From: Clostridia bacterium
GTDB lineage: Bacteria; Bacillota; Clostridia; Christensenellales; Aristaeellaceae
Direction: 5' to 3'
DNA length: 64,000 nucleotides
Assembly (NCBI GenBank): GCA_017470145.1
Contig: JAFUFB010000003.1
Span: 186,001 to 250,000 of the forward strand
Below the pieces are notes generated by a model, which was given only the letters and a program-made list of their open reading frames with translations, did no database searches and was not told the DNA's origin. Made by a program: the position numbers and the translations under genes. The stretch's first letter is position 1. Every line of letters starts with the position of its first letter. Positions 1,751 through 14,443 of this stretch are shown here, piece after piece.

Positions 1751-3937
1751 CTACTCGCTGGTCACTAACTCGGCGTAAGCGCCGCCCTTGGCAAAAAGCT
1801 CTTCGTGTGTGCCGCGTTCCACGATTTTTCCTTTGTCCAACACGATGATTTGATCGCAATCCCGAATGGTGGACAAGCGGTGCGCCACTACGATGCAGGA
1901 AATGCCCCGATCTTTTATGGCCCTCGTCAAATCATATTCCGTTTTCGCGTCCAGGGCGCTGGTGGCTTCGTCCAGAATGATAATAGAGGGGTCCTGCGCC
2001 AGCACCCTGGCGATTTCCAGCCGTTGCCGCTGCCCGCCGGACAAATCCCTTCCGTTTTCGCTCAGCCTGCCCTGATAACCGCCGGGGCGCTTGAGAATGT
2101 CGTCGTGGATCTGCGCGTCCCGGGCAGCCAGGATCACCTCATAATCCGCAATGGTTTCATCCCACATCCTGATATTGTTGGCGATGGTATCTTCAAACAG
2201 CACGATGTCCTGATCCACCATGGCGACCGAGCCTGTGAACACGCCGCGGTCAATGTCCCCGATGGGCTTTCCGTCAAAAAGGATCTCTCCGCTCCAGGGC
2301 GTATACAGCCCGGTGATCAGCTTACTGACTGTGGATTTTCCGCATCCGCTGGTCCCCACGATGGCCACGCGCTGTCCCGGACTCATGTACATGGAAAAAT
2401 CGGAAATAACGGGAGCGCCCAAGCGGGAATAGCCAAAGGTCAGCCCGTTAATCTGGATTTCACCCTTGAGCTTGGCATAGCTTTTCCCGGGATCTGCAGG
2501 CGCTTCCCGCGACATGACGGGGTCGTCCGGATATTCCATTACGTCTTCGATCCGCTCCATCTCCGTGCGCATTTCCTGAATGGATTGGCCGGCGTTGATG
2601 AGGGTCATGGCCGGATTCATAAAGGAAGAAAGGAGGCCCTGAAAGGTAGCGATCATGCCCAGGGTGAAGCTGCCTTCCATCGCCAGTCGCACGCCCAGGA
2701 AAAGCACCAGATAATTGGATGCCGTGCTGATGAATTGCGGGATCAGCCCGATGCGGGCATTCAGGGTGGAAAACTTTACATTCTGCGTTGTTACGGATGC
2801 CTGATAGCCGCTCCATTTTTTGAAAAAGCCTGCTTCCGCACCTGATGCCTTGATTGTTTCTGTCATGCTGATGCCGGCCAGGGTTGTGGCGGAAAGCTTT
2901 CCGGCATCCCGAAGCTCCACTCGTTTCAGGTTCACGCGTTTCGCGGACAAGTATTGGGCCACAAGCAGATTGAGGGTCAGCGAACAGAGCCCAACCGCCG
3001 TCATTACGGGGCTGTAACGCAGCATGACAAACAGGTAAAATACCATCATGACCGTATTCAGCGCCAGGGGAGCCACTGTATCCACTAATGTGCCGGCAAT
3101 GGAGGCGTTTGTGCGTTGCCGCTGGAGGATATCACCAGACAAACGCTGGGAGAAAAACTCCATGGGCAGATGAAGCACCTTCCACATATAAGAAGCGTTG
3201 CCCTCAATCGCCATTTTTCCATTGATCTTCAAAGAATAAACGGCCTGCGTCCACTCCACGATCAGTTGGAACGCCGCCAGCGCCGCCATCACACCGATAA
3301 ACGGGATCAGCCATTCGGGCGCTCTGCGGGTCAAAAGACGATCATAGAATATCCGCGACATGGTGGGATTGATGACGCCAAACAGATAAGCGATCACGGA
3401 AGACAGCGTCACAAAAGTGACGGCAGGCCCCGCGCCCTTGAGCCGCTTCCGGGCAAAAGCCAGGGTGCTTTTCCGTTTCCCGGAGGGAACAAAGCCCGCT
3501 CCCGGCGCGAAGGTCAGGCAAAGACCCGTGAACGACCGGTCAAACTGCTCCATGCTCACCTGCACCTTGCCCCGGGCCGGATCGTTCAGGATGGCCTTGT
3601 CGCCCCGAAAACCGTCCAGCACCACAAAATGATTGAATTCCCAATGAATGATGCAGGGAAAAGTGGCTGCTTTTTTCAGCCCGCTGATTTCCATTTTGTA
3701 TCCGTGGGCTTCCAGACCATAGTGCTGTCCAGCCAAATAAATATTTCTCATTTTAGAGCCGTCTCTGGATACGCCGCAATCCAAACGCACCTGCTCCAGA
3801 GGCACCCATTTCTGATAATAGGCCAGGATCATCGCAAGGCATGCGGCCCCGCACTCCAGCGTCTCCATCTGCATGATGACAGGCACTTTGGCGACGCCGC
3901 TTTTAAGCGGCTGCCTGATCTTCGCTTTCTCCTTCAT
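1751..3937 (-). CDS. NHLM-type peptidase/ABC exporter (C39 protease-containing)
   Basis: This 728-residue protein is a double-glycine-cleaving peptide exporter. Residues 1 to about 150 are a C39 cysteine protease: Cys29 in LECGAACLA, His102 in EFNHFVVLDG and Asp118 in NDPARG form the catalytic set. Residues about 160-460 are the ABC transmembrane domain. The C-terminal ATPase has Walker A GTSGCGKST, signature LSGGQRQR and Walker B IIILDEATSALD. It would remove leaders after GG and export the cores of the precursors at 8.9-12 kb, all of which end their leaders in AAGG. It lies 19 bp downstream of the HlyD-like gene. Length and domain order are normal for the peptidase/ATPase subunit of NHLM systems. 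Fully intact. Confidence 0.95.
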   Translation of the reverse strand: MKEKAKIRQPLKSGVAKVPVIMQMETLECGAACLAMILAYYQKWVPLEQVRLDCGVSRDGSKMRNIYLAGQHYGLEAHGYKMEISGLKKAATFPCIIHWEFNHFVVLDGFRGDKAILNDPARGKVQVSMEQFDRSFTGLCLTFAPGAGFVPSGKRKSTLAFARKRLKGAGPAVTFVTLSSVIAYLFGVINPTMSRIFYDRLLTRRAPEWLIPFIGVMAALAAFQLIVEWTQAVYSLKINGKMAIEGNASYMWKVLHLPMEFFSQRLSGDILQRQRTNASIAGTLVDTVAPLALNTVMMVFYLFVMLRYSPVMTAVGLCSLTLNLLVAQYLSAKRVNLKRVELRDAGKLSATTLAGISMTETIKASGAEAGFFKKWSGYQASVTTQNVKFSTLNARIGLIPQFISTASNYLVLFLGVRLAMEGSFTLGMIATFQGLLSSFMNPAMTLINAGQSIQEMRTEMERIEDVMEYPDDPVMSREAPADPGKSYAKLKGEIQINGLTFGYSRLGAPVISDFSMYMSPGQRVAIVGTSGCGKSTVSKLITGLYTPWSGEILFDGKPIGDIDRGVFTGSVAMVDQDIVLFEDTIANNIRMWDETIADYEVILAARDAQIHDDILKRPGGYQGRLSENGRDLSGGQRQRLEIARVLAQDPSIIILDEATSALDAKTEYDLTRAIKDRGISCIVVAHRLSTIRDCDQIIVLDKGKIVERGTHEELFAKGGAYAELVTSE

Positions 3938-3956: not shown

Positions 3957-4646
3957 TCAGTTCAGCAGGAAGCTGATGGGGGTCGTATTTTCTGTCACGA
4001 TTTCCGCGTCATAGATGCCATGGCCCAGGCTGGTTTCTGCATCGTCCAGTATCGCATCTACCTCGGCGATCACATAGGGTTCGGCGTTGCTGACGGTCGC
4101 CAGCCGCCCTTCAGTCAAATTCTCATCTTTCGCATCCCAGATCCGCACCCGTGTATCGCGGTTCTCCAGCTGCTGCTGGATGCTTAATTCCGTGCAGGTC
4201 CACAAGCCGTTGCCGTATCGGATATAGTGCAAATCCTCCAGGCTTACGTCCGTGTCTTCCCCAAAGCTCATATAATAAAGGCCGTCCTCAAAATCCGCGC
4301 TGCTGTCCGGACTTATATCCAACAGGATTCGCGCACTGGAAAAAACGTTGCGGATACTTCCCGTTTCGCCTGCGATGCGCACGGGCATCCCGACAGAGAA
4401 GTGATCCATCTGATCGAATGGGATCTCCCCGGTGATATATTCCCATGAAAAGAATTCCATCTTCAGCGGATAGGTGCTTTCCATTCTGGATACAGCGGCA
4501 TAGATGATAAAGCCTGCCAGCAGCAGAATGACCGTGCTCAGCAGCATCCATAACTTCGGGCTGGTGACCCGCAGATACTTCCGCATCTGTTCGGGAGAAG
4601 CGATCCTTTCCGTACTTTTCTTTCTGAATAATGATTCCTTCGCCAT
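3957..4646 (-). CDS. HlyD-like secretion adaptor of the NHLM exporter
   Basis: A 229-residue protein with a short cytoplasmic N-terminus (MAKESLFRKK), one membrane anchor at about residues 37-58 (WMLLSTVILLLAGFIIYAAV) and an extracytoplasmic beta-rich region with lipoyl/HlyD-like segments (GMPVRIAGETG and YVIAEVDAIL). It ends with a hydrophobic TPISFLLN. I chose ATG at 4646, with AGGAG about ten bases upstream, rather than an upstream in-frame ATG at 4694 that lacks a good ribosome site and has a promoter-like sequence over it. It is the first gene of the export operon, directly downstream of SARP-like site A at 4713-4729. The position and topology fit the NHLM secretion protein family; the family call rests on context as much as on sequence. 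Confidence 0.8.
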   Translation of the reverse strand: MAKESLFRKKSTERIASPEQMRKYLRVTSPKLWMLLSTVILLLAGFIIYAAVSRMESTYPLKMEFFSWEYITGEIPFDQMDHFSVGMPVRIAGETGSIRNVFSSARILLDISPDSSADFEDGLYYMSFGEDTDVSLEDLHYIRYGNGLWTCTELSIQQQLENRDTRVRIWDAKDENLTEGRLATVSNAEPYVIAEVDAILDDAETSLGHGIYDAEIVTENTTPISFLLN

Positions 4647-4699
4647 CTTTGAAAGCTCCTCTCGGAAAATCAGTGGCAGCACATACAAATCCAAAATAA

Positions 4700-4729
4700 A
4701 GATACCATCCTCTGTCCATCAAATGTCCA
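4700..4729 (-). promoter_or_regulatory. SARP-type direct-repeat operator and promoter, site A (export operon)
   Basis: On the minus strand the sequence reads TGGACA-TTTGA-TGGACA (4729 to 4713), an 11-bp-period direct repeat. Eight bases later comes TATCTT (4704-4699 region), a 4/6 match to a -10 box. The same layout occurs at site B. The repeat overlaps where a -35 box would be, as at promoters activated by SARP proteins. The start of the HlyD-like gene is about 55 bp downstream. The direct repeat is plainly visible; binding by the nearby response regulator is inferred. Confidence 0.7.
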
Positions 4730-4745
4730 CCCGGAACCATTAAAA

Positions 4746-4790
4746 AAACCATGCGGCTGACGTTCATTATTTGTCAGGCGCATGGCTTTT
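4746..4790 (-). terminator. Rho-independent terminator of the precursor/rSAM operon
   Basis: Arms ccatgcggctgac (4749-4761) and gtcaggcgcatgg (4772-4784) pair with one mismatch. Read on the minus strand the stem is followed by GGTTTTTTTA, a good U-tract. It closes the transcript that includes the secreted protein at 4802-5698 and separates it from the export operon promoter. Confidence 0.8.
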
Positions 4791-4801
4791 CAACACAAAT
4801 T

Positions 4802-5698
4802 TTAATACCAGTTGTATTTGTAATAGGAGCTTTCAGGGCCCATCAGAAAACTGTTGATCATCTGTGCATAGCGGCTGGGCGTCGTTTCTATATCCGAATA
4901 TTCGAAGGTGAAGCGGGATTGACTGATCCAAGGGCCATTGCTTGTTGGAGAGAAGACGATCCCTTCTGTTACAGCGCCGCCCTCTTTCGTCGTTTCGTAA
5001 CGATTCTCGATCCCGGAAGGCCCGACCCTGTGCACCGCGGATGTGACTGCTACGATACCGTCTTCATCGTATTCGGCGGTATAGGTGCCGCTGAAGCGCA
5101 GCCATTGCTTTTCTTCTTCGCCGCCCCAGTTGGCATACATGCCGGTATTCACCGTTTTGACCAGCAAGCCGCTTCGCACGGTGACGGAAACGGCATCCAC
5201 CTCCTCGGCGAAATAACCCACATGATCAGCCCCTTCGGAATAATAACTGCGTTCATCCCGAAGCACCAGCGTAAAGTACTCGTCACCGTTTCCATATTGA
5301 TAGAACAGGGAGCAGTTTTTGATATCGCTCTGTTCATACACATTATAAATACAGCCGTTTCGGTATTCTGCCGTTGAAAGGAGCCCGCCTGTTGAATCAT
5401 GGGTTTCCCGTTTTGTTGGAACGCCGTTTTCAAAGACATACGAAAAGCTGGTCACTACGTGGATATCCGCATCGATTTCATACAGATCAACGGACACGGG
5501 ATACTCGTTTTCATATGTGAAGTTCCATATCCTGAGAGGCGTCCACTCATTTGTTTCAAAGTCGATCCCGTATTCCGTCACTGTCTTTACCAGCCGTGGC
5601 GTGATGACTGTTTCTTCCGCATGGACGCCGCCCACGAAAGAGATCGACAGGACCAGCGCCAATAGATGAAGGATCATTTTCTGTACTTTATTTTTCAT
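4802..5698 (-). CDS. Secreted protein of unknown function in the RiPP island
   Basis: A 298-residue protein not recognised as a known family. It starts MKNKVQKMILHLLALVLS and has a clear signal peptide that would be cut after GVHA, before EETVITPRL. The rest is soluble, beta-rich and rich in Tyr, Glu and Thr, with repeating motifs of the kind seen in bacterial wall-less beta-repeat proteins; no catalytic motif is evident. I chose ATG at 5698 because GCAGGGG precedes it; an in-frame TTG slightly upstream is possible. Before the IS66 element landed 49 bp upstream it would have followed the radical SAM gene by about 110 bp, so it was probably the last gene of that operon. A second secreted protein (10943-11701) has similar size and character, so one of the two could be an immunity or target-binding protein, but that is a guess. 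Confidence 0.7.
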   Translation of the reverse strand: MKNKVQKMILHLLALVLSISFVGGVHAEETVITPRLVKTVTEYGIDFETNEWTPLRIWNFTYENEYPVSVDLYEIDADIHVVTSFSYVFENGVPTKRETHDSTGGLLSTAEYRNGCIYNVYEQSDIKNCSLFYQYGNGDEYFTLVLRDERSYYSEGADHVGYFAEEVDAVSVTVRSGLLVKTVNTGMYANWGGEEEKQWLRFSGTYTAEYDEDGIVAVTSAVHRVGPSGIENRYETTKEGGAVTEGIVFSPTSNGPWISQSRFTFEYSDIETTPSRYAQMINSFLMGPESSYYKYNWY

Positions 5699-5738
5699 GG
5701 AACCCCTGCCTTTCTTCAACACATATATAAAAAATCTC

Positions 5739-5746
5739 CTTCTGTT
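5739..5746. repeat. Left copy of the 8-bp IS66 target-site duplication
   Basis: CTTCTGTT here is repeated exactly at 7336-7343, immediately outside the two ends of the insertion. Eight base pairs is the usual duplication for IS66-family elements. Confidence 0.93.
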
Positions 5747-7335
5747 GTAACTATTCAGTCGTCCCATCCTTCGACCAGCGCAAGAGCAGTGCCATTGCGC
5801 AGTGAAAGACAGGCATCAAAAGAAGAGATGCCATGACGCACTGCTGTTGAGATGAAACTCAACACACGTGCAAATTGTTCGGCACCCTTCTCGGTCCGAA
5901 AGCATCCGGATACCTTCTCTTTCACGCGAGCAAAACGAATGGCCTGTTCCGCTGCGTTGTTAGTATAAGGAACGCGCCAATCGGTTGCGAATCGGAGGAT
6001 ATCCTCTTTGCAATCCTGGAACCTTTCCAGGAGGCAGCGTATCTTTCCTTTCTTAATCCTCCCTCGTTTTCCCGGTATCCGTTCCGGTAATGGGTTTGCT
6101 GCCAGGCCTTCAGCAACGATGCGGTCATACTGCTTCATGTACCGTTGCAATTCTTCGTCCGTAAAGGACGTACGGTCTTCCGCCATCAGTAGATTCTTTG
6201 CATGGCACATTCCCTGCAGCAGCTTCCGAAGTTTTTGGGCCCATTCCTGGTTTCCGGTTTCCTCAGCATATACCAGTTCGCGTTCAAGGTGCTGGCAGCA
6301 CATAGCGTGGAACACATCCTTGAACTTTTTGTAGGAAGACCAGAAATCATGGACAGCAATTCCTGTGAATCCAGGAAGCACGCCCATGGCTTCCATCCCT
6401 TCCTCACCACGTTTCTTATGCACGGTGTAGAATCTCCAAGGACCACTGCAGGCACAGTGAAGCCAATGGAGAGATCCGGCTGCACGGAGTCCGGTTTCGT
6501 CGAAGTTGACTACATCTTTAACGGACACCTTGCCCTTGATTCTATCGACTGGTGCAACAGCCTCCGCGGCTGCCTTGTCCAGCATATTCTGGATCGCACC
6601 AGTACTGATCGGAATTCTCAGGCAGGATAGCAGTTGCTTCGTCCGGTCGACACTTACGTAGCCTACGGTCAGAAGCATATTTACCAGTGAAAACACTCCT
6701 GCACCGTATTGCTTGCTTCCGGTAATTCCCACCGGAAAATTGCCCTGGAGTTTCTCTCCGGAAAGGGGGCATGTACAGCCCATTACTTTATGAGCGATGA
6801 GTTCCGTTTCGACGCGAACCTCGTACTCATAGCGGGTGTCACAGCATTTCATCTTGCACTGACCGAACCGAGGACAGCCCTTGCATTTGTCCGGAACATG
6901 TTCCTCTATATGATCAGGTTTACGGTCAAGCTTCATCCCGGTTCCTTTATGACCAGGTTGTCCACCCTGCTTCTTTCCGCTCTTCCCGCGAAGGCTCTTC
7001 GGAGCAGGCTTCTCCAATCGTCCTTCGGACGGTGGTTTGGAACTGTTATTGCTGTTCTTCTTATGTGTCAGTTCCTCTATCCTGGCGGTGAGTTTGGCAA
7101 CTTGTTCTGTCAGTGCGGCTATCTGAGCGTCCTTGGTAAGGATGAGGTCATTCATCATTCGGAGCTGTTCCGACATTGCTGCAAGCACTGCTTTTAATTC
7201 CTGCAGTTCCTGCTCCATGGCGAACACCTCCATCCTTTGTTTCCCTTATGATAGAAGTATTCGACACTCGGGTTTTGGAATCCTTTTGGGAAATCGACCT
7301 TTTTGAATCTTTTTATCCTACGACTGAATAGTTAC
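5747..7335 (-). mobile_element. Complete IS66-family insertion sequence (ISBst12-like, tnpC only)
   Basis: The 1589-bp element is bounded by perfect 15-bp terminal inverted repeats (16 bp counting one more matching base): GTAACTATTCAGTCG at 5747-5761 and its reverse complement at 7321-7335. It is flanked by the direct repeat CTTCTGTT. Ends beginning GTAA and an 8-bp duplication are characteristic of IS66. It holds a single transposase gene and lacks the tnpA and tnpB genes of classic IS66, as in the ISBst12 subgroup. The duplication is perfect and the transposase intact, so the insertion is probably recent. It splits the RiPP operon between the radical SAM gene and the downstream secreted-protein gene. 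Confidence 0.95.
5755..7218 (-). CDS. tnpC: IS66-family transposase (TnpC)
   Basis: A 487-residue transposase. The N-terminus is a leucine-rich coiled coil (about 1-50) followed by the family hallmark NNSSKPPSEG. Next is a zinc-binding cluster (CKGCPRFGQCKMKCC). The catalytic core has the acidic motifs NFDETGLR and VHDFWSSY, and near the C-terminus NNAAEQAIRFARVKEKVSG, the IS66 signature. ATG at 7218 is preferred because GGAGGT lies eight bases upstream; an in-frame ATG at 7233 has worse spacing. The stop codon lies inside the left terminal repeat, a compact arrangement common in this family. No frameshift is seen. Confidence 0.95.
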   Translation of the reverse strand: MEQELQELKAVLAAMSEQLRMMNDLILTKDAQIAALTEQVAKLTARIEELTHKKNSNNSSKPPSEGRLEKPAPKSLRGKSGKKQGGQPGHKGTGMKLDRKPDHIEEHVPDKCKGCPRFGQCKMKCCDTRYEYEVRVETELIAHKVMGCTCPLSGEKLQGNFPVGITGSKQYGAGVFSLVNMLLTVGYVSVDRTKQLLSCLRIPISTGAIQNMLDKAAAEAVAPVDRIKGKVSVKDVVNFDETGLRAAGSLHWLHCACSGPWRFYTVHKKRGEEGMEAMGVLPGFTGIAVHDFWSSYKKFKDVFHAMCCQHLERELVYAEETGNQEWAQKLRKLLQGMCHAKNLLMAEDRTSFTDEELQRYMKQYDRIVAEGLAANPLPERIPGKRGRIKKGKIRCLLERFQDCKEDILRFATDWRVPYTNNAAEQAIRFARVKEKVSGCFRTEKGAEQFARVLSFISTAVRHGISSFDACLSLRNGTALALVEGWDD

Positions 7336-7343
7336 CTTCTGTT
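7336..7343. repeat. Right copy of the 8-bp IS66 target-site duplication
   Basis: CTTCTGTT, identical to 5739-5746, directly follows the right inverted repeat. Confidence 0.93.
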
Positions 7344-7404
7344 TATATTTACTGCATGACGTCATGCGCCTGCTCCCGCACGATGATAGCTTTTCTTTGC
7401 GTGA

Positions 7405-8871
7405 TCAGCAGGGTGCTTCGAGTATAGATGACCCTTTGTCCGCCTGATTCCCTTTAACGGGCGGATTCCTCTTCAGATACGCCTCGAACGCGGGCTGCGC
7501 AGCATCACGTATCCGCTGATCCCAGCCGTTTTCAAAGAACGCGCACAGATCGGGATCAACCCCGTAATAGTTGTCTCCGGCCATCAGCGCGGCGTTCCGG
7601 CAGCCTCCGGCGCAGCGGTCGACAAAACGGCACGTCCTGCATTTTCCGCTGCCATCGCGGACATCCCGGACGGTGGTGTATTCATACCTGATCAGTTCTG
7701 AATCGGTCAGGATCTCGCTGAGGGTCATGCTCTTCAACGTCGGGAAATGCTCCGCAAAGTCGCAGTCCGCCATACCCATGCAGGGACAGACAAGGCCTTC
7801 CGCGCTGATGTGGAAGGAATGAGCCAGCACACCGCAGGAGAGCGCTTCCGCCTCGTCCTTCTCATCGCATTTCCGCTCATTGTAGATAACCCAGCGATCT
7901 TCACCGGGGGTGTACATGAAGGCGCCGCTCAGCATGATGGAAACAGGAGCATCGTCTTCAAAATACTGGGGGATGTAGGCTTCAAAGATCGCCTGCTCCT
8001 CGGCGCGGCTGAGCTGCAGGTCTTTCACGTCGTCCTTCGCCCATTCGCCCAGATTCATCATGCTGCCGCACTTCACGGCGGTCACACCCAGGGAGGCGAG
8101 CAGATTGATAGATTCCCGGATGGTATGGGCGTTTTTCCTGTGCACGCACATGGAGACGGAAGTTTTGTATCCCCTCTCGTTCAGCAGGCGAAGGGCTTTC
8201 AGCGTTCGCTCCTCCGCGCCGGGAATGCCGCGGAGAAAATCATGCCAGCCGACACCGTCAAAGCTCAGCTGAAAACTGGGATGCATTCCCCGCTCCTCCA
8301 GCGTGTCCAGCAGCTTTTCATCCACCAGCCAGCCGTTGGTATAAAGGATGGTCAGAGCGATTTCCCGCTCCTTAAGCGCATCCAAAATCTGCGTGAAATC
8401 AGAGCGGATCAGCGGCTCCCCGCCGGTTATGCCCACCCGGAAAACGCCGCATTCCGCCAGCATATCTGCGATACGGAGGATTTCCTCGTGGGAGGGATTT
8501 CCGTGCTTGCCGGACGGTGCGGACATAAAGCAGTGCCTGCACCGCAGATTGCATTCCCCGGTGATGGACCAGTGCGCATCCTGGCGATAGCGGGCGGGAT
8601 AAGCTTTGTACCTTTGCTCCGGCAGGAGAAAATCCAGCCATCCCGCCGGATGAATGATGTGTTCTGCCTGCAGTTTTTCCAGAAACTTTCGCTGCTTCTC
8701 CGGCAGCGTATCCGGGTCGATATCATGTGCAGCGTCACACTTCAGGAGCAGCTTGTACAAATCGGGCGCGAAAAACTGCGCCTCATGCTTCTGTGCGTCA
8801 TACAGGCCGGTGGGCAGCTTGTGCCAACCCCGCAGGCGATAACGCGGATCGATCATGTACTTCATCTTCAT
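7405..8871 (-). CDS. Radical SAM/SPASM RiPP maturase
   Basis: A 488-residue radical SAM enzyme. Residues about 1-90 form a small N-terminal region that resembles a RiPP recognition element (PqqD-like), but that is a weak call. Cys107, Cys111 and Cys114 in CNLRCRHC bind the SAM 4Fe-4S cluster. GITGGEP follows at about residue 145. The C-terminal SPASM domain carries the cysteine pattern CGVL, CPCMG, CRTC and DRCAGGC for auxiliary clusters. It overlaps the upstream Nif11 precursor by four bases (ATGA), so the two are translationally coupled and the precursors are the likely substrates. Known SPASM maturases make thioether, C-C, epimer or spliced products; which chemistry applies here cannot be told. 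The IS66 element lies about 60 bp past its stop codon. Confidence 0.92.
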   Translation of the reverse strand: MKMKYMIDPRYRLRGWHKLPTGLYDAQKHEAQFFAPDLYKLLLKCDAAHDIDPDTLPEKQRKFLEKLQAEHIIHPAGWLDFLLPEQRYKAYPARYRQDAHWSITGECNLRCRHCFMSAPSGKHGNPSHEEILRIADMLAECGVFRVGITGGEPLIRSDFTQILDALKEREIALTILYTNGWLVDEKLLDTLEERGMHPSFQLSFDGVGWHDFLRGIPGAEERTLKALRLLNERGYKTSVSMCVHRKNAHTIRESINLLASLGVTAVKCGSMMNLGEWAKDDVKDLQLSRAEEQAIFEAYIPQYFEDDAPVSIMLSGAFMYTPGEDRWVIYNERKCDEKDEAEALSCGVLAHSFHISAEGLVCPCMGMADCDFAEHFPTLKSMTLSEILTDSELIRYEYTTVRDVRDGSGKCRTCRFVDRCAGGCRNAALMAGDNYYGVDPDLCAFFENGWDQRIRDAAQPAFEAYLKRNPPVKGNQADKGSSILEAPC

Positions 8872-9260
8872 CCGTGGCTCAGCTGGACGCAGAGGCCGGA
8901 CACGCAGGCCTTAGCATAATAGGTTATCTCGCACCAGGTGCCGGTCTCTTCGCTGTAAGTATGATCGTGGAAGAAGAGGCGGCAGCCCATCTCATGTCCG
9001 TCCGGAGCTTCTTCTCCATTCCACCATGCGCCTCCCGCTGCGCCGTCCATGTCCGTCTCGTTCAATTCCACGACTTCTGCATTGCCCTGTTCGCTCTGCA
9101 TGCGAAGTTCTTTTTCCGCTGCAATGAGCTCCTCCTCGGTCACCTCAAAGCCCAGTTCCGCCGCGACTGCCACCGCCTGGCTGGGATCGGACACGCGGGC
9201 CTTCAGCGCCTCGTCCGAAAGGACTTTCTTCAGAAATTCCGTTGCTGTGCTATTCACCAT
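8868..9260 (-). CDS. Nif11-leader RiPP precursor 1
   Basis: A 130-residue precursor. Residues 1-77 are a Nif11-type leader (TEFLKKVLSDEAL and AVAVAAELGFEVTEEEL) ending in the double-glycine site MDGAAGG (Gly76-Gly77), the expected C39 protease cut. The 53-residue core has four cysteines, and histidines and aromatics: DGHEMGC, HDHTY, TWCEI and CVSGLC. It overlaps the start of the radical SAM gene. Its core shares the pattern DGHE-x-GC-x2-F-x-H, Tyr, then WCE with precursor 2, so the two products are probably related. The leader is nearly identical in all three Nif11 precursors while cores diverge, as expected for a modular RiPP family. Confidence 0.9.
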   Translation of the reverse strand: MVNSTATEFLKKVLSDEALKARVSDPSQAVAVAAELGFEVTEEELIAAEKELRMQSEQGNAEVVELNETDMDGAAGGAWWNGEEAPDGHEMGCRLFFHDHTYSEETGTWCEITYYAKACVSGLCVQLSHG

Positions 9261-9315
9261 GGTTCTTTCCTCCTTTTTTCATCAAAGGTGTTTCCCTTTG
9301 GAATTGCGCTGGTTT

Positions 9316-9663
9316 TCAATGCGTGTGAAACTCATATTCGCACCACTCTTTGTTGTCCCTGACATATTCGTAATGATGATAGAAGAAGAGGCAGCCTTTT
9401 TCATGCCCATCTTTGGCGTCCTCGCCAAACCCAAAGAGGCCGCCGGCAGCCTGATCCATGTTCTCTTCGTTCAGTTCCACGACTTCCGCATTTTCCTGTT
9501 TGCGTAGCTCTTTTTCCGCCGAAATGAGTTCCTCTTCAGTGATCTCATAACCCAGCTCCGCTGCGACAGCCACAGCCTGACTGGGATCGGCCACGCGGGT
9601 TTTCAGCGCCTCGTCCGAAAGAACTTTCTTCAGAAATTCCGTTGCCGCATGGTGGTTTTCCAT
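9316..9663 (-). CDS. Nif11-leader RiPP precursor 2
   Basis: A 115-residue precursor with a Nif11 leader ending MDQAAGG (Gly74-Gly75). The 40-residue core, LFGFGEDAKDGHEKGC onward, contains only two cysteines (one in KGC, one in EWCEY), several Tyr/Phe and a His-rich tail (FHTH). Its DGHE-x-GC and WCE motifs match precursor 1. The ribosome site AGGAGGT lies just before ATG at 9663. It sits between the other two precursors with no promoter or terminator visible in the 55- and 84-bp gaps, so it is co-transcribed with them. Confidence 0.9.
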   Translation of the reverse strand: MENHHAATEFLKKVLSDEALKTRVADPSQAVAVAAELGYEITEEELISAEKELRKQENAEVVELNEENMDQAAGGLFGFGEDAKDGHEKGCLFFYHHYEYVRDNKEWCEYEFHTH

Positions 9664-9747
9664 TGTGTTTACCTCCTATGGTCATATTGATTTCTGCTTC
9701 GGTTGCAATCATGTGAACCTTAAGTCCCAGGGAGAAAGCGGTTCGCC

Positions 9748-10215
9748 TCAGCGAACTTCCCCATACATCGTTCGGGTCGTTTCAGTTCCGCAGTTCGGAC
9801 AGATATAATGTGCCTTCGCACCCCCTTTCGTCGTATATCCGTTATAGCACATTGCATTGCCGCATTTCGGGCATTCTTCGCATGTGGGTTCGTGGCTGTA
9901 TTCTACATTAAGTATAATACAGAAATCATTGCTCCAGCAGCGGCTGCCTGCCTCTACGGTCGCTGCGCAGCCCTGTTTTATCCAATCCCTGCTGCCTCCG
10001 GCAGCCCGATCCATATCCGCCTCGTCCAGCTCCACGACCTCTGCGCTGTTCTGTCTGCAAAACTCTTTCTTTGCCGTAACGAGTTCCTCCTCTGTCACCT
10101 CGAAGCCCAGCTCCGCTGCAACTGCCACTGCTTGAGCGAGATCGGCCACGCGGGCCCTCAGCGCCTCGTCTGAAAGGACTTTCTTCAGAAATTCCGTTGC
10201 TGCGTTGTTTGCCAT
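9748..10215 (-). CDS. Nif11-leader RiPP precursor 3 with zinc-ribbon-like tail
   Basis: A 155-residue precursor. The leader matches the other two and ends MDRAAGG (Gly73-Gly74). The 81-residue core has an N-terminal half with spaced cysteines (QGCAATVEAGSRC, SNDFC) and a C-terminal half that looks like a zinc ribbon: CEECPKCGNAMC, then CPNCGTE about 20 residues later. It ends TMYGEVR. GGAGG precedes ATG at 10215. The first half resembles cores found in other NHLP-type precursors. A zinc-ribbon-like part in an exported peptide is unusual: it may be a metal-binding product or a fusion of a leader to a small cytoplasmic-type domain. Confidence 0.87.
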   Translation of the reverse strand: MANNAATEFLKKVLSDEALRARVADLAQAVAVAAELGFEVTEEELVTAKKEFCRQNSAEVVELDEADMDRAAGGSRDWIKQGCAATVEAGSRCWSNDFCIILNVEYSHEPTCEECPKCGNAMCYNGYTTKGGAKAHYICPNCGTETTRTMYGEVR

Positions 10216-10248
10216 TGTGGTTTCCTCCTTTGATGTGTGTTTCCCGTT

Positions 10249-10914
10249 TTATTTCTCCGCAAGCATCCGCTTGGCGCTGGACAGGGTCTTCAAATATACG
10301 ATAAAAGCGATCAGCTCAAATATCAGCGAGGCCAGCGCCAGCAAGGTCACAGCGATTCCAATGAGGCCAAGGGTGGTTTGATCCTGCACGCCGGCGATCG
10401 TAAAAATAGCGCCGATAGCAGCAGCAATGGAAATGATTTGGGCAGTGATGAACCGATTGATCGCCTTCTTGGCCAAATCGCCTACTGCCTGATCCAGCAT
10501 ATGCTTTGCCAGAGAAATGATCCCCGTCAGGATGTAGTAGACCGCCAGCAGATCGCCGATATTTCCGATGACGGCAGCCAAAGATGAAAGGAGCGTGTTG
10601 CTGCTTTGGAACACGCTTGCAGCCACAGAGCCTATGATCCCTACACATAGCCAGATCAGCGCTTTTCTGAAAACGGGCTCGTCCTGGGAGGCGTCGATGG
10701 TTCCTTTCACATTTAGAATGAAGGAAACAAAACCGGCAACAACGCCAGCAATCATCAGCACACCCGCGACTGCCGCGACGCTTTCGGCAGCATCCCGCAC
10801 CTGCCCGACAGATACGATCATAGACATACATGCGAAAGCGATCGCCGACAGAAGCTGTAAAAACACAGCGGTATATATGTTCTTGACGCCATTGTAAGCA
10901 TGAGGAAATTTCAT
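10249..10914 (-). CDS. Multi-pass membrane protein in RiPP operon (possible immunity)
   Basis: A 221-residue hydrophobic protein with about five or six membrane segments, for example AVFLQLLSAIAFACMSMIVS, SVAAVAGVLMIAGVVAGFVS, ALIWLCVGIIGSVAAS, ITAQIISIAAAIGAIFTIAG and IGIAVTLLALASLIFELIAF. No family is recognised. I chose ATG at 10914 with GGGTGG upstream. It lies between the upstream secreted protein (28-bp gap) and precursor 3 (33-bp gap), inside one operon. Integral membrane proteins in this position in bacteriocin clusters often give self-protection, but nothing in the sequence proves it. Confidence 0.72.
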   Translation of the reverse strand: MKFPHAYNGVKNIYTAVFLQLLSAIAFACMSMIVSVGQVRDAAESVAAVAGVLMIAGVVAGFVSFILNVKGTIDASQDEPVFRKALIWLCVGIIGSVAASVFQSSNTLLSSLAAVIGNIGDLLAVYYILTGIISLAKHMLDQAVGDLAKKAINRFITAQIISIAAAIGAIFTIAGVQDQTTLGLIGIAVTLLALASLIFELIAFIVYLKTLSSAKRMLAEK

Positions 10915-10942
10915 CGTACTTCCACCCTTTCCATCATCAATA

Positions 10943-11701
10943 TCAGTTGCAGCGCTCAAAAGCAATGATTTCGTCAGGTGCATCGGACCTGATCCAGATC
11001 AGATTGAAGGTTTCATCATCCACCGCATCGAGCTTTAATCCGCCCAATGCACCGGCTTCCACCGGCTCGCCCCGTTCTTGGCCGTCCAGCGGCAAATCGT
11101 ACAGCTTGCCTTTGTCGTAGAGGAAGCCGTCTTCGTAGCAATCGTAGTAAACGGTAGCAATGAAAATATATGCGCCATGGCTCACAGGGGAAGTGATTTC
11201 CACATCCCAGCCCATTGCTTCATTCTTTTCAATGCGCATTTGGGTGAACTGCGTGTCCTTTTCCAGCCATTCCCCGGAGAGAAAAGCGTCCTGCTCTTCC
11301 TCCATGGGGGAGGCGGTATAGGAGCCGCCCACGTTTTCGATGATTTTTCCGTCCTCCACAGCCAGATCCCACGTCATGGCCTGGTCGCAGGCCACGGCGC
11401 AGTAATAATGCCGCACGGAAACGGTGGCTTCTCCGTCTCCCACGGGATCATACTGTACCACAAAGCAGCCATCCTCAATCTGCGCTTTGGAAAGCCTCAC
11501 GACTGTATCATCTTCGCTCATCTCATCTGCATACCATCCCTGATCGTCCTCCTCTACGGGGATGCGGATGACGTAGCTTCCATTTTCAATTTCGCAGATA
11601 ATTGCCGCGCTTTTCTCTTCCTCCGCCAGCGCAACGCCGGTCATTATCATACACAAGGCGCACAGCAGTGCGAAGGTTTTCCTCAGATAGGTGTTCTTCA
11701 T
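10943..11701 (-). CDS. Secreted acidic protein of unknown function
   Basis: A 252-residue protein with a signal peptide (MKNTYLRKTFALLCALCM, cleavage likely after GVALA) and a strongly acidic mature part. Pieces such as YYCAVACDQAMTWDLAVEDGK and YFIATVYYDCYEDG-like segments suggest a beta-sandwich, with four cysteines that could pair outside the cell. ATG at 11701 follows AGGAGGAAACCACG. It comes directly after the double-glycine peptide gene. It is like the protein at 4802-5698 in size, signal peptide and acidity, but I see no alignment that proves homology. Family not recognised. Confidence 0.7.
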   Translation of the reverse strand: MKNTYLRKTFALLCALCMIMTGVALAEEEKSAAIICEIENGSYVIRIPVEEDDQGWYADEMSEDDTVVRLSKAQIEDGCFVVQYDPVGDGEATVSVRHYYCAVACDQAMTWDLAVEDGKIIENVGGSYTASPMEEEQDAFLSGEWLEKDTQFTQMRIEKNEAMGWDVEITSPVSHGAYIFIATVYYDCYEDGFLYDKGKLYDLPLDGQERGEPVEAGALGGLKLDAVDDETFNLIWIRSDAPDEIIAFERCN

Positions 11702-11718
11702 CGTGGTTTCCTCCTCAT

Positions 11719-11988
11719 TCATTTTTGATTTTTCTCCAGTGAGCCGTGCTGTTCGATCCAGACGTACTCCGCCCACTCGGAAGGATTCAGGAAGATACGC
11801 GCTGCCACATACGGCTTCTCCCGTGCATCGCTTTTCTCCATGATCCTGGCGAACAGGTTTTCATCCATGCACGATTGCAAATATGCGATGGCCTCCTTTT
11901 TGAATCTGCCCGGCGTGTATTGCCCGCCTGCGGCAGCGTTCATTTCTTCGATGCTCAGTTCTTCAAAAGCGGCGTTTTTTTGCTCCAT
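11719..11988 (-). CDS. Small double-glycine-leader peptide (non-Nif11)
   Basis: An 89-residue peptide. Its leader is only 22 residues, MEQKNAAFEELSIEEMNAAA followed by GG, with the ELSIEEM-x-AA-GG pattern of classical bacteriocin or pheromone leaders cut by C39 peptidases. The predicted 67-residue core QYTPGRFKKEAIAYLQSC onward has one cysteine and is helix-prone and charged. I chose ATG at 11988 (AAGGAATAAG upstream). The longer in-frame reading has no ribosome site and crosses the promoter. It is the first gene after SARP-like site B, so it would be the most highly made product of that promoter; it could be a bacteriocin, a signal for the two-component system, or another RiPP substrate. Confidence 0.78.
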   Translation of the reverse strand: MEQKNAAFEELSIEEMNAAAGGQYTPGRFKKEAIAYLQSCMDENLFARIMEKSDAREKPYVAARIFLNPSEWAEYVWIEQHGSLEKNQK

Positions 11989-12094
11989 CTTATTCCTTCT
12001 CTCCTTATATAAGCCCGCCGAGCCGGTCGATATAGGCTTCCAGCTCACCCAGGGGGAGGCATACATAGCACACCCCTCTCCACGGGTCTGTCCG

Positions 12095-12127
12095 AATTCT
12101 ATCATGGGCTGTCCATCATATGTCCAC
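12095..12127 (-). promoter_or_regulatory. SARP-type direct-repeat operator and promoter, site B (precursor operon)
   Basis: Minus-strand TGGACA-TATGA-TGGACA (12127 to 12111) is followed after eight bases by TAGAAT (12102-12097), a 5/6 match to a -10 box. The repeat, 11-bp period and 8-bp gap match site A. This promoter drives the double-glycine peptide and, with no terminator seen before 4.8 kb, probably the whole precursor/rSAM operon. Confidence 0.75.
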
Positions 12128-12130
12128 CCA

Positions 12131-12165
12131 AGAAAAAAGGGCTGCTGCGTTTAGCAGCATCCCCG
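12131..12165 (-). terminator. Rho-independent terminator of the two-component operon
   Basis: On the minus strand GGGGATGCTGC-TAAAC-GCAGCAGCCC is followed by TTTTTTC. It ends the transcript from the histidine kinase and response regulator about 165 bp past the regulator's stop codon. Confidence 0.8.
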
Positions 12166-12280: not shown

Positions 12281-12297
12281 TGTCCATCAGACGTCCG
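12281..12297 (-). promoter_or_regulatory. Degenerate third copy of the SARP-type repeat, site C
   Basis: Minus-strand CGGACG-TCTGA-TGGACA has the same 11-bp period with two changes in the distal half. No good -10 box is at the 8-bp position and no gene starts before the terminator at 12131-12165. It may be a decayed site or a regulator-binding site without a promoter. The rest of 11989-12326 holds site B and the terminator; nothing else is seen. Confidence 0.45.
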
Positions 12298-12326: not shown

Positions 12327-13136
12327 TTATTCCATTTCCTTTCCGAACGCCTTTCGGGCGATGTAACTTTCCGTGATGCTTGCCCAGGAATACGCGCTCA
12401 TATACTCGCCGCGGAACATATTGACGGCCTCCGGGTCTCCCTGAAAGAAACGGTAAACATCGCATGAAAACGTCTCCGGCACAATACGCATGGTGCCTTT
12501 CTTCAGAGAAAACATTTCCTGCGCGCCGCAGGAATCCAGGGCATCCCGCAGGATGCGAATGATCACGTCCAGCTGCTTTTGCATGGATCGGTCGTATTCC
12601 CGATCCTCCCATAAGATGGAAAAGGCTTCCGCACGGGTCACGCTGCTGCCCTGTTTATCCACCAGGTAGGCGAGCAGCTCCTTGGACTTCGCTTTTCGGA
12701 AAGTCACCTGCTCCCCATCCACGAAGAGATCGAAGCCCCCGAAGGTTTTTACCTCGATATGAGCCGCTTGCTTTCTGTCCTTTCCTTCCGACGCATAGGA
12801 GATTTCCTCCGCCAGTTTATCCGGCTCCACAGGTTTTAGCAAATATCCCGAGGCGTGCACGCCGAACGCTTTCAAGGCATACTGGGAATAAGCCGTCAAA
12901 AAAACGATCGCTGTTTTCGGGCAAATTTTCTTGATGGCGGCAGCCAGCTCGATGCCGTCCATTTCGGGCATATCGATGTCCAGCAGCGCAACATCGACGG
13001 CATGATCCCGGCAATATGCCAGCGCCTCCCCGGCTTCCGTAAAGCCCAGCGCCTCCCGCACCGAGGGGAGCTTTTGACATTGTGCCGTAACCTCCGCCAC
13101 GATCAGGTATTCGTCGTCCACACAAATCACTCTCAT
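12327..13136 (-). CDS. Response regulator with SARP-like DNA-binding output domain
   Basis: A 269-residue regulator. Residues 1 to about 120 form a receiver domain with phospho-acceptor Asp53 (LLDIDMPEMDG), acidic pocket DDE at 7-9, Thr in FLTAYSQYALKAF and Lys in LLKPVEP. Residues about 128-220 form an OmpR-type winged helix of the SARP kind (VKTFGGFDLFVDGEQVTFRK, KSKELLAYLVDKQGSSVTR), followed by a short BTAD-like helical end. This is the receiver-plus-SARP (SAPR family) layout. It overlaps the kinase gene by four bases. Direct-repeat sites A and B match how SARPs bind, so it is the likely activator of both RiPP operons. Full BTAD domains are longer; the end here is reduced. Confidence 0.88.
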   Translation of the reverse strand: MRVICVDDEYLIVAEVTAQCQKLPSVREALGFTEAGEALAYCRDHAVDVALLDIDMPEMDGIELAAAIKKICPKTAIVFLTAYSQYALKAFGVHASGYLLKPVEPDKLAEEISYASEGKDRKQAAHIEVKTFGGFDLFVDGEQVTFRKAKSKELLAYLVDKQGSSVTRAEAFSILWEDREYDRSMQKQLDVIIRILRDALDSCGAQEMFSLKKGTMRIVPETFSCDVYRFFQGDPEAVNMFRGEYMSAYSWASITESYIARKAFGKEME

Positions 13137-14443
13137 GTGCGTTCCTCCCGTTTTCCTTCGTCTGCCATCTTCTTTTTTTCGGAGGGCGTGAAGGGAATAT
13201 CGATCATAACGGCGGTCCCCTCACCGATACGACTTTCGATTTTCAGCGTGCCTCCGCAGAGCCTTTCGATTCGCTCCCGGACATTACGGATGCCGATGTG
13301 CCCATCCGTTTCGTTCGTTTTCTCCACGTCAAAGCCTTTCCCATTATCCCGGATCACGATCTGATGGCCCGTCTGGCTCCTGTCTGCTGTGATTTTGACG
13401 ATACCGTCCTTCCTGACGCGCACGCCATGACGGATGGCATTTTCAACCATGGGCTGAATCGAAAGCGCCGGCAGCAGGAAATCCTCGTCCTGAATGTCAT
13501 AAATGATCTGGATAAAGGGAAAGCGGGTGATTTCGATATCCGCATACGTTCTGGTGTGCTCGGTTTCCTTGCTCAATGAAATCAACTCGCATTTTCCCAG
13601 AGAATCCAGGTTTTGCCGAAGATACGCGCTGAATTTCCCCGTGACCTCGTAAGCCTTTTCCGGGTCGATATGACAAAGCGACTGGATCGTGGAAAGAGTA
13701 TTATACAAAAAGTGCGGCTGGATCTGGGTCATCATGATCTGGATACGCTGCTCCGCTTCCAGCGCCTTTTCATGCTCCCGGACAAATTGCAGATGCAGCC
13801 AGATATAGAAAAACAAGCTGCTGACGACAATCGCAATCGACAAAAAAGAAACGATCTGCACCTTGTCACCTACGCTGTAATCCAGAAAAATCGAGGAAAC
13901 GATCAGCAGCACATTCAGCATGGGGATTAATATCTCCAGCCGACGGAGATTCCTGAATTTGCGGATGGTCAGCACCGTCAGTTCAACCAGCAAAAGGATA
14001 CAAACGTACAGGGAAACGTTCCGCAAGGGGCCAGGAATCCAAGCGCCGCCTGGTTCGTAGTAAAAGGTGATCGGCCAGATCAGAGCGGACAGGTAGAGCA
14101 GCGCGTTGATGCCGCATAGCACCCATTCCCATACGCATTTCCGATCCGGGCTGACAATCATAACAAACAAGACCAGGATCACGGGGCGGATGCTGTATCC
14201 AAATGCGGAATCCAGGGTGGCCAAGGGAATGGATCGCTTCGGCAGCGCCATCAGCACGGCGGCGCAGTTTTCGGCGATCAGGAAGAAGGACAGCACGGCG
14301 ATACAGTGAATCACGGTCTTATGCTTTTTACTGATATAAGAATCAAATTGAACCGCCAAGCTCAGCGCGATCAGGATCAGCGTCAGAGGGAGGATCATCG
14401 TAAGCGTGTCAATCGCTTCCTGGCTCAGAAATTCTGTGATCAA
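13133..14443 (-). CDS. 7-TM LytS/AgrC-like sensor histidine kinase
   Basis: A 436-residue kinase. Seven membrane segments lie in residues 13-220, with no large extracytoplasmic domain, so the membrane part itself likely senses a hydrophobic or peptide signal. A short coiled region (221-236) leads to the His_kinase domain: His244 in QIQPHFLYNTLSTIQ, then N-box PMVENAIRHGV and glycine motifs DNGKGFD and GHIGIRNVRERIE. Start is TTG at 14443 with AAAGGAG eight bases before; no better ATG is found. It overlaps the response regulator (ATGA), so they form one two-component pair. Kinases of this class are often peptide-pheromone receptors, and a small exported peptide is made by the same island. Confidence 0.9.
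   Translation of the reverse strand: MITEFLSQEAIDTLTMILPLTLILIALSLAVQFDSYISKKHKTVIHCIAVLSFFLIAENCAAVLMALPKRSIPLATLDSAFGYSIRPVILVLFVMIVSPDRKCVWEWVLCGINALLYLSALIWPITFYYEPGGAWIPGPLRNVSLYVCILLLVELTVLTIRKFRNLRRLEILIPMLNVLLIVSSIFLDYSVGDKVQIVSFLSIAIVVSSLFFYIWLHLQFVREHEKALEAEQRIQIMMTQIQPHFLYNTLSTIQSLCHIDPEKAYEVTGKFSAYLRQNLDSLGKCELISLSKETEHTRTYADIEITRFPFIQIIYDIQDEDFLLPALSIQPMVENAIRHGVRVRKDGIVKITADRSQTGHQIVIRDNGKGFDVEKTNETDGHIGIRNVRERIERLCGGTLKIESRIGEGTAVMIDIPFTPSEKKKMADEGKREERT

Follow-up and report, generated by a model that had tools for sequence, protein, structure and literature searches.

Among the closest described counterparts of the system considered here are AfsR and other Streptomyces antibiotic regulatory proteins (SARPs), winged-helix activators that control secondary metabolism. 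In the available part of PMC10936776, SARP promoters are described as carrying direct repeats 11 or 22 bp apart, with the 3′ repeat 8 bp from the −10 and a poor −35; the AfsR box runs from −40 to −19, ending 6 bp before a −10 whose assumed position is −12 to −7. The accessible text of PMC10972967 gives heptameric repeats with spacers of 4 to 15 nucleotides that overlap the −35. According to the portion of PMC10663231 at hand, BTAD domains occur in 0.6% of the response regulators in biosynthetic clusters, and a SARP is defined by PF00486 together with PF03704. Clusters of the Nif11/NHLM (NHLP) type, which make ribosomally synthesized and posttranslationally modified peptides (RiPPs), combine Nif11 leaders, the exporters ABC1 and ABC2, and a radical S-adenosylmethionine (SAM) maturase (PMC2887384, in the part consulted). 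Each of these parts is already known: SARP geometry, such clusters, and response regulators of the BTAD type within biosynthetic clusters. Here, we describe a stretch of 64,000 nucleotides (the window; positions 186,001 to 250,000 of contig JAFUFB010000003.1) from a Clostridia bacterium of the Aristaeellaceae, in which a direct-repeat promoter element stands before both the export operon and the precursor operon of a Nif11/NHLM cluster, next to a kinase-regulator pair. We consider it highly likely that the repeat is bound by the window's own two-component regulator, with SARP-like activation of these two promoters and others. Below, G000 is the bacterium's own genome (an 84% complete assembly), C27 is the contig with the window, other G numbers are genomes of relatives, and L numbers are loci; all window features lie on the minus strand.

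Element A (TGGACATTTGATGGACA) occupies positions 4713 to 4729 and element B (TGGACATATGATGGACA) positions 12110 to 12126, each an exact direct repeat of TGGACA-N5-TGGACA with an 11-bp period. An earlier note on this stretch had read the repeat at both places, with B one base off (12111 to 12127), and had placed a −10-like box exactly 8 bp past the second TGGACA. Inspection of the sequence bears this out, with TATCTT at 4699 to 4704 for promoter A and TAGAAT at 12096 to 12101 for promoter B, the latter extended by a TGA in front. The two promoters were also called identical, which is nearly true; one N5 base differs (TTTGA, TATGA) and the 8-bp gap differs too. Both elements lie directly behind terminator-like hairpins and so look like starts of new transcription units: just upstream of A, a hairpin with a T run spans 4743 to 4790 (−23 kcal/mol, z −5.0; absent from the list of a simple terminator scan with a loop limit of 8), and just upstream of B, an intrinsic terminator spans 12134 to 12164, 3′ of the regulator gene (−16.4 kcal/mol, z −2.5). 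The HlyD-like gene behind A has an ATG at 4646; an alternative TTG start at 4694 is at or before the expected transcription start. A decayed third copy of the element, with two mismatches, a matrix score of −4.3, and no −10, lies at 12281 to 12297, about 30 bp behind the regulator stop and near the usual position of the element in relatives.

Counted in the window alone with up to two mismatches, the repeat shows a mild excess (9 occurrences where chance predicts 3.96, a number equaled in 2 of 100 shuffles). Genome-wide, the excess is large: G000 holds 11 exact repeats, and a search that includes the −10 and allows up to two mismatches finds 12 elements, 10 of them perfect, with none in the reversed control. 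Moreover, a weight matrix built from 43 sites of the genus, with the three C27 sites held out (A and B included), scores those three at 27 to 32.5 (A, 32.5; B, 27.9), while the reversed window contains nothing at 9 or above.

The conserved unit is larger than first noted. Among 46 distinct sites, gathered by the repeat alone from 112 loci, it reads TRYTGGACA-N2-TRYTGGACA-N8-TANNNT, that is, two 9-mers with an 11-bp period. TANNNT stands at offset 8 in 32 of the 46 sites (the runner-up, offset 10, has 8), and the −10 is sigma-A-like, with TG one base ahead of it in 28. A search for a −35 (TTGACA at 16 to 18 bp) gave a best match of one position in six at 44 sites and two in six at the other two; the candidate −35 places overlap the conserved repeat, and the repeat itself excludes a −35. 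The element also has a direction: an open reading frame with a ribosome site starts within 250 bp downstream of 40 of the 46 sites, compared with 9 in the mirrored direction. If the repeats are taken as 11-bp units, the resulting 22-bp box ends 6 bp before the −10. The SARP geometry that the earlier note had named, an 11-bp period with an 8-bp gap, is in print, at least in the available text of PMC10936776, and the window system shares it, along with the poor −35, the winged helix, and a role in secondary metabolism, with AfsR and its kin, from which it differs in its receiver fusion and kinase partner, its BTAD stub, its often extended −10, and its uncultured Clostridia-type lineage.

The halves of the repeat vary in concert. 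Of 26 distinct sites near a regulator, 22 have matching halves at the second position, where independent halves would give 11.5 (a count uncorrected for kinship); both halves read GGGACA in G016 and G230, CTT precedes both halves in a clade of ten regulators, and TGTTGGGCATTTGTTAGGCA occurs twice near the regulator in G021. Such variation suggests that what is recognized is the repeated structure itself. Site class requires 7 changes on the regulator tree, compared with at least 15 in 500 label shuffles. Within G000, the eight exact sites on contigs C1, C11, and C24 belong to the class TRY...TT and the three on C27 to GGG...GA; the window's GGG class recurs on G017:C6, where the regulator is near the window's, though not firmly grouped with it on the tree.

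The earlier note had suggested that related genomes be searched for the repeat and its spacing, with a lack of conservation counting against its reading; instead, both turn out to be conserved over several genera and to track the regulator. Across 45 genomes of the genus, the pattern TGGACATNTNNTGGACA has 45 matches in 13 genomes, and its reversed control has none. A survey of the family (300 genomes from 50 genera) with a longer pattern, up to one mismatch, and a reversed control found the element in 31 genomes from 9 genera, with one control match noted (G232). Regulator homologs, counted at E ≤ 1e-50, are present in 62 of the 300 genomes, and they concentrate where the element is: 25 of the 31 element genomes have one, compared with 37 of the other 269 (Fisher, 2.4e-14). 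Within the genus, the corresponding figures are 12 of 13 and 6 of 32 (p = 7e-6), two of the counted homologs (G043 and G003) being partial. The association is also one of position: of 90 sites, 36 have a regulator homolog no more than 15 kb away, an outcome with a binomial probability of 1.7e-23 even under a 5% null, and for 14 the distance is at most 500 bp.

A cross-genus test used 22 new regulator loci, all outside the genus and chosen by protein alone, at a site cut-off score of 15. Eighteen of them carry a site, and the reversed control gave none in 77 kb. Six wide loci without an exact pattern match, five of which have a site, coincide with six of these 22 and were counted once. At 16 of the 22 loci, no more than 300 bp separate the regulator match from the site behind it; 13 of these sites share the regulator's strand, and 12 of those lie at 12 to 111 bp; at L220, site and regulator are 56 bp apart. 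No element was found around 76 distant response regulators (1.38 Mb) or at 10 loci of G000's other response regulators.

The regulator gene (12327 to 13136) encodes a receiver, a SARP-type winged helix, and a BTAD stub (PF00072, PF00486), and it overlaps by 4 bp the gene for a sensor histidine kinase of the His_kinase/LytS type (13133 to 14443; PF06580, PF02518). The receiver matches PF00072 at E 5e-22, and its phosphoacceptor aspartate, D53, is invariant in both alignments. PF00486 (Trans_reg_C) exceeds the cut-off for the window protein, and 15 of 15 genus members match it at E ≤ 0.01. Even with the threshold relaxed to E 10, neither the window protein nor L121, L122, L125, or L128 gives a match to BTAD (PF03704). 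Only the first BTAD helices remain in the window regulator, as evidenced by a predicted model (mean predicted local distance difference test score, 89; predicted template modeling score, 0.55) and by alignment with response regulators of REC-winged helix-turn-helix (wHTH)-BTAD architecture, the SAPR type. Of the receiver plus SARP-like DNA-binding half that the earlier note described, the receiver and the Trans_reg_C domain are present, but a full SARP is not; having PF00486 and lacking PF03704, the regulator is SARP-like in its working and not a strict SARP.

By sequence comparison, its lineage appears to lie with BTAD-type regulators. Six REC-wHTH-BTAD regulators (Paenibacillus and kin, Lysinibacillus, and Formimonas) match it at 103 to 145 bits, five of the six covering residues 1 to 252 or beyond, compared with at most 70.5 bits, chiefly via the receiver, for the other G000 response regulators by BLAST. 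Receiver and winged helix align with those proteins (L130 to L139) at 27 to 33% identity, and the BTAD start is the same (Y.GEY....Y.WA); unlike the window protein, which has no full BTAD, theirs is above the Pfam cut-off in 4 of 4 scanned, and their flanks lack the element. The likeness to the cluster-situated BTAD response regulators of PMC10663231 is one of two-component control by an OmpR/BTAD-type regulator; the differences are that the window protein lacks PF03704 and that Nif11 goes unmentioned in the part of that text available.

The most serious alternative is that the regulator binds the element as an ordinary activator of the OmpR/PhoB type, on an 11-bp direct-repeat box and with nothing specific to SARPs, a possibility that we doubt but take seriously. 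OmpR/PhoB response regulators likewise join a receiver to a winged helix and use repeat boxes in place of a −35. PhoB, for instance, also binds 11-bp repeats, with a gap of about 10 bp between box and −10. Pfam names the window domain Trans_reg_C; a Foldseek search with the full regulator ranks OmpR/PhoB regulators first, with no separation of SARP from OmpR; and a profile of short-type homologs alone (A4) slightly favors OmpR-type proteins (6iju, 0.00096; ArlR, 0.001) over EmbR (0.0027), again without separating the two groups. Against this, the DNA-binding half matches the six REC-wHTH-BTAD regulators at E 4e-15 to 2e-5 but two G000 regulators of the REC plus Trans_reg_C type only at 8e-4 and 0.1, and a profile that includes BTAD homologs (A3) places EmbR first (5.6e-9, against 1.9e-5), with AfsR at 0.0023 and PhoB at 0.05. 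Box and gap differ from those of PhoB as well, the 8-bp gap being the one published for SARPs (PMC10936776, in the part seen).

Several observations weigh against binding by the window's regulator, or soften the tests of it. At E ≤ 1e-50, a regulator is missing from six of the 31 element genomes; their completeness is 68% (G013), 66% (G240), 80% (G180), 89% (G146), 91% (G285), and 96% (G300). Conversely, the strict pattern is absent from 37 regulator genomes. No site was found at score 11 beside L111 (50% identical) or L123 and L124 (51 to 52%), none at score 15 in L211, L214, L217, and L218 (L211 and L217 being short contig ends), and none by mismatch count at L073 and L078. The 22 cross-genus loci are partly kin (L210, L212, and L215 are closely related), and L208 is nearly a duplicate of L110, a genus locus whose site fed the matrix. 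The fit of site class to the regulator tree could arise from linked inheritance alone, which may explain part of it. Finally, a second regulator, missing from the 84% complete assembly, could own the sites on C1, C11, and C24; no second such regulator or kinase was found in the assembly as it stands. G020, assembled in two contigs, has one full-length close regulator homolog, one receiver-only match, and four dispersed sites; with a single full-length homolog and four scattered sites, one regulator acting in trans is plausible.

Receiver-only matches, 41 to 45% identical to the regulator's receiver, stand beside the regulator or no more than about 2 kb from an element (L101:5722-6126, L104:6279-6644, G006:C11:16221-16586, and G020:C1:2624021-2624389). 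Such proteins are possibly a phosphate sink or decoy. The kinase-regulator-radical SAM loci L110 (G033:C29) and L121/L233 (G160:C37) are nearly identical across two genera, which would reflect recent transfer or contamination of one bin.

Some of these exceptions suit a different explanation, that the element belongs to another regulator or to an alternative sigma factor that travels with the locus. Genes for STAS and anti-sigma proteins are recurrent targets, a STAS gene and its partner following 5 of the 46 sites and a sixth site having a STAS gene 1.2 kb on, and the six element genomes without a regulator fit as well. We nevertheless hold this to be improbable, given that the two halves of the direct repeat vary together, as would suit a dimeric activator, that the −10 is sigma-A-like with TGN in 28 of the 46 sites, and that 16 of 22 loci chosen by protein have a site within 300 bp of the regulator. 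A sigma-54 or extracytoplasmic function (ECF) promoter is unlikely on similar grounds, since what is conserved combines a direct repeat, its halves co-varying, with a −10 of the sigma-A type that is often extended. That the repeat arose by chance or is mobile, without a regulatory role, draws on nothing more than the modest excess in the window and has next to no chance of being right, as it is refuted by the empty or nearly empty reversed controls, the differing site flanks, the fixed −10 spacing, and the direction into genes.

We propose that kinase and regulator form a two-component system whose regulator, upon phosphorylation in response to a signal, would bind as a side-by-side dimer to the 22-bp box TRYTGGACANN-TRYTGGACANN in the place of the −35, 6 bp ahead of the often extended −10. 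There it would replace the missing −35 and recruit RNA polymerase as SARP activators do, whose side-by-side dimers touch sigma region 4; it would thereby act as an activator rather than a repressor. In G000, it would switch on the NHLM export operon (A), the precursor/maturase operon (B), and a pair of SH3/secreted-protein genes behind a third C27 element (C27:185412, about 0.6 kb past the window's left end), as well as, probably, eight to nine further promoters. One switch thus very probably turns the export and precursor genes on together. The earlier note's single system for both operons is upheld insofar as element and spacing track the regulator over genera, but its regulon extends beyond the RiPP operons.

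Behind A, the predicted targets are the genes for HlyD, ABC1, and ABC2. The first encodes a HlyD-like membrane-fusion protein (3957 to 4646) that is 38 to 47% identical to ABC1-adjoining proteins in relatives; it misses TIGR03794 (E 0.03, 13 of 156 bits), and the gene is still a conserved ABC1 neighbor there. The NHLM peptidase/permease/ATPase exporter ABC1 follows at 1751 to 3937 (TIGR03796, 910 bits; cut-off, 853), and ABC2, at 1 to 1684, continues past the left window end (C27:185498-187684; TIGR03797, 721 bits; cut-off, 709). Behind B, the predicted targets, taken as one operon on the basis of gene order, are a leader-type small protein (11719 to 12009; mersacidin-like leader, below cut-off), a probably secreted protein of unknown function (10943 to 11719; signal-like N terminus by eye, no Pfam match over cut-off), a membrane-type protein (10249 to 10914) whose relatives immediately follow elements in G017, G019, and G020, three Nif11-leader precursors by TIGR03798 (cut-off, 32.3 bits) at 9748 to 10215 (34.1 bits), 9316 to 9663 (35.5 bits), and 8868 to 9260 (31.1 bits, 1.2 under the cut-off), and a radical SAM/SPASM maturase (7405 to 8871; PF04055, PF13186), homologs of which (35 to 37%) come immediately after the element in G160, G033, and G244. 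An IS66-family transposase gene (5755 to 7233; PF03050, 142 bits; cut-off, 23) separates the maturase gene from the export operon. The gene content is that of the Nif11/NHLM clusters in the consulted part of PMC2887384, from which the window differs by a HlyD-like protein below TIGR03794 and by SARP-like two-component control, which our searches did not turn up for such clusters.

The leader-type protein has a conserved core of about 60 amino acids, YVAARxFLxxxxWxxYVWIExxGSL, with or without a GG-type leader, and homologs in 10 of 34 regulator loci (L096, L103, L106, L110, L232, L233, L234, L239, L246, and L247); the single leaderless copy scanned has no Pfam match. It is too conserved for a usual RiPP core and may be a signal or folded partner. 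We entertain, tentatively and with more doubt than belief, a feedback circuit in which the regulator drives the leader-type protein and the NHLM exporter and the kinase senses the exported product, so that RiPP and envelope genes would be under autoinducing, population-sensing control. In at least one species (G015), the kinase-regulator operon itself carries the element.

NHLM ABC1 matches occur in 34 of 55 genomes, and ABC1 genes 76 to 80% identical to the window's are found near the regulator in G008 (partial), G038 (24 kb away), G053, G123, G160, and G244, which represent five genera. On G160:C37 (L121, metagenome bin RUG11012), kinase, regulator, element, radical SAM gene, three Nif11 precursors (all three over the TIGR03798 cut-off), leader protein, SH3 pair, HlyD-like gene, ABC1, and ABC2 follow one another on one strand. 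In G244, the homologs likewise share a strand and keep nearly this order, and the element follows the regulator at a distance of 1 kb. In both, a single element precedes the whole co-oriented set, whereas the window's set is split by the IS66 transposase gene and has several elements; the split would account for the existence of site A. The expectation that the element would lie upstream of NHLM exporters in relatives therefore holds for whole clusters in G160 and G244 but not for the HlyD-like gene, directly before which no element was found in six homologous clusters (L096 at score 11; L231 to L235 at score 18), nor in L121 at score 11. Where such clusters have an element, it lies nearer the regulator or leader gene. 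That the element is simply part of the NHLM genes was rejected, as none of the 8 ABC1 loci examined has a site closer than 1.5 kb; in G123, one of the eight, sites occur at a greater distance. G000 itself has a second NHLM ABC1 exporter (G000:C13:29999-32107), on a contig without the element.

Beyond the cluster, the third C27 element precedes genes for an SH3 secreted protein and its partner. Those on C1, C11, and C24 precede genes for membrane-type, secreted-type, and SH3 proteins, MATE transporters, STAS partner-switch proteins, a dihydroorotate-dehydrogenase-like enzyme, and a sortase-like protein. An SH3 gene is the first gene behind six of the 46 sites and the second behind one, a STAS/partner pair comes first in five, and the kinase-regulator operon in G015 and a second regulator in G008 account for two; at 18, the downstream genes are unmatched by the references used. 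The regulon is a mixed one of envelope, secretion, and RiPP functions, wider than the RiPP genes.

Elements may also be paired or clustered. Divergent elements lie 51 bp apart at G000:C11:197721 and 197772, with similar pairs on G230:C20, G274:C40, G146:C403, and G091:C108. On G000:C24:55847-78413 (L032, L033), six elements occur in 23 kb around a nonribosomal peptide synthetase gene (Condensation, PP-binding), together with an SH3 pair, STAS/MATE partner-switch genes, and a sortase-like gene; this may be a further biosynthetic locus with the same control.

For the combination, the element, and the regulon, no published account was found, with subscription literature mostly outside the search. 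Searches returned nothing joining SARP with Nif11, nothing on SARP, response regulator, and direct repeat in Firmicutes, no relevant title on COG3947/SAPR or on a TGGACA repeat with a response regulator, and, among the matches listed, no title on SARP-like RiPP control in anaerobes. In the part of PMC11747023 available, 'sarp' and 'btad' occur only within author names and DOIs. The remark in the earlier note that SARP-type control of a Nif11/NHLM cluster in an anaerobe seemed undescribed agrees with this outcome, within the same bounds of the search.

What emerges is a predictive promoter code (repeat, gap, and −10) for a two-component regulon, with its likely regulator named and Nif11/NHLM RiPP clusters placed under it. 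The findings also suggest that SARP-style activation needs little of BTAD; the feedback circuit, if true, would be run by a receiver-SARP hybrid working with a BTAD stub. Such a code offers an inducible handle on silent RiPP clusters, and it describes a regulon present in 9 of the 50 sampled genera of a family of uncultured, partly ruminant-derived, Clostridia-type bacteria.

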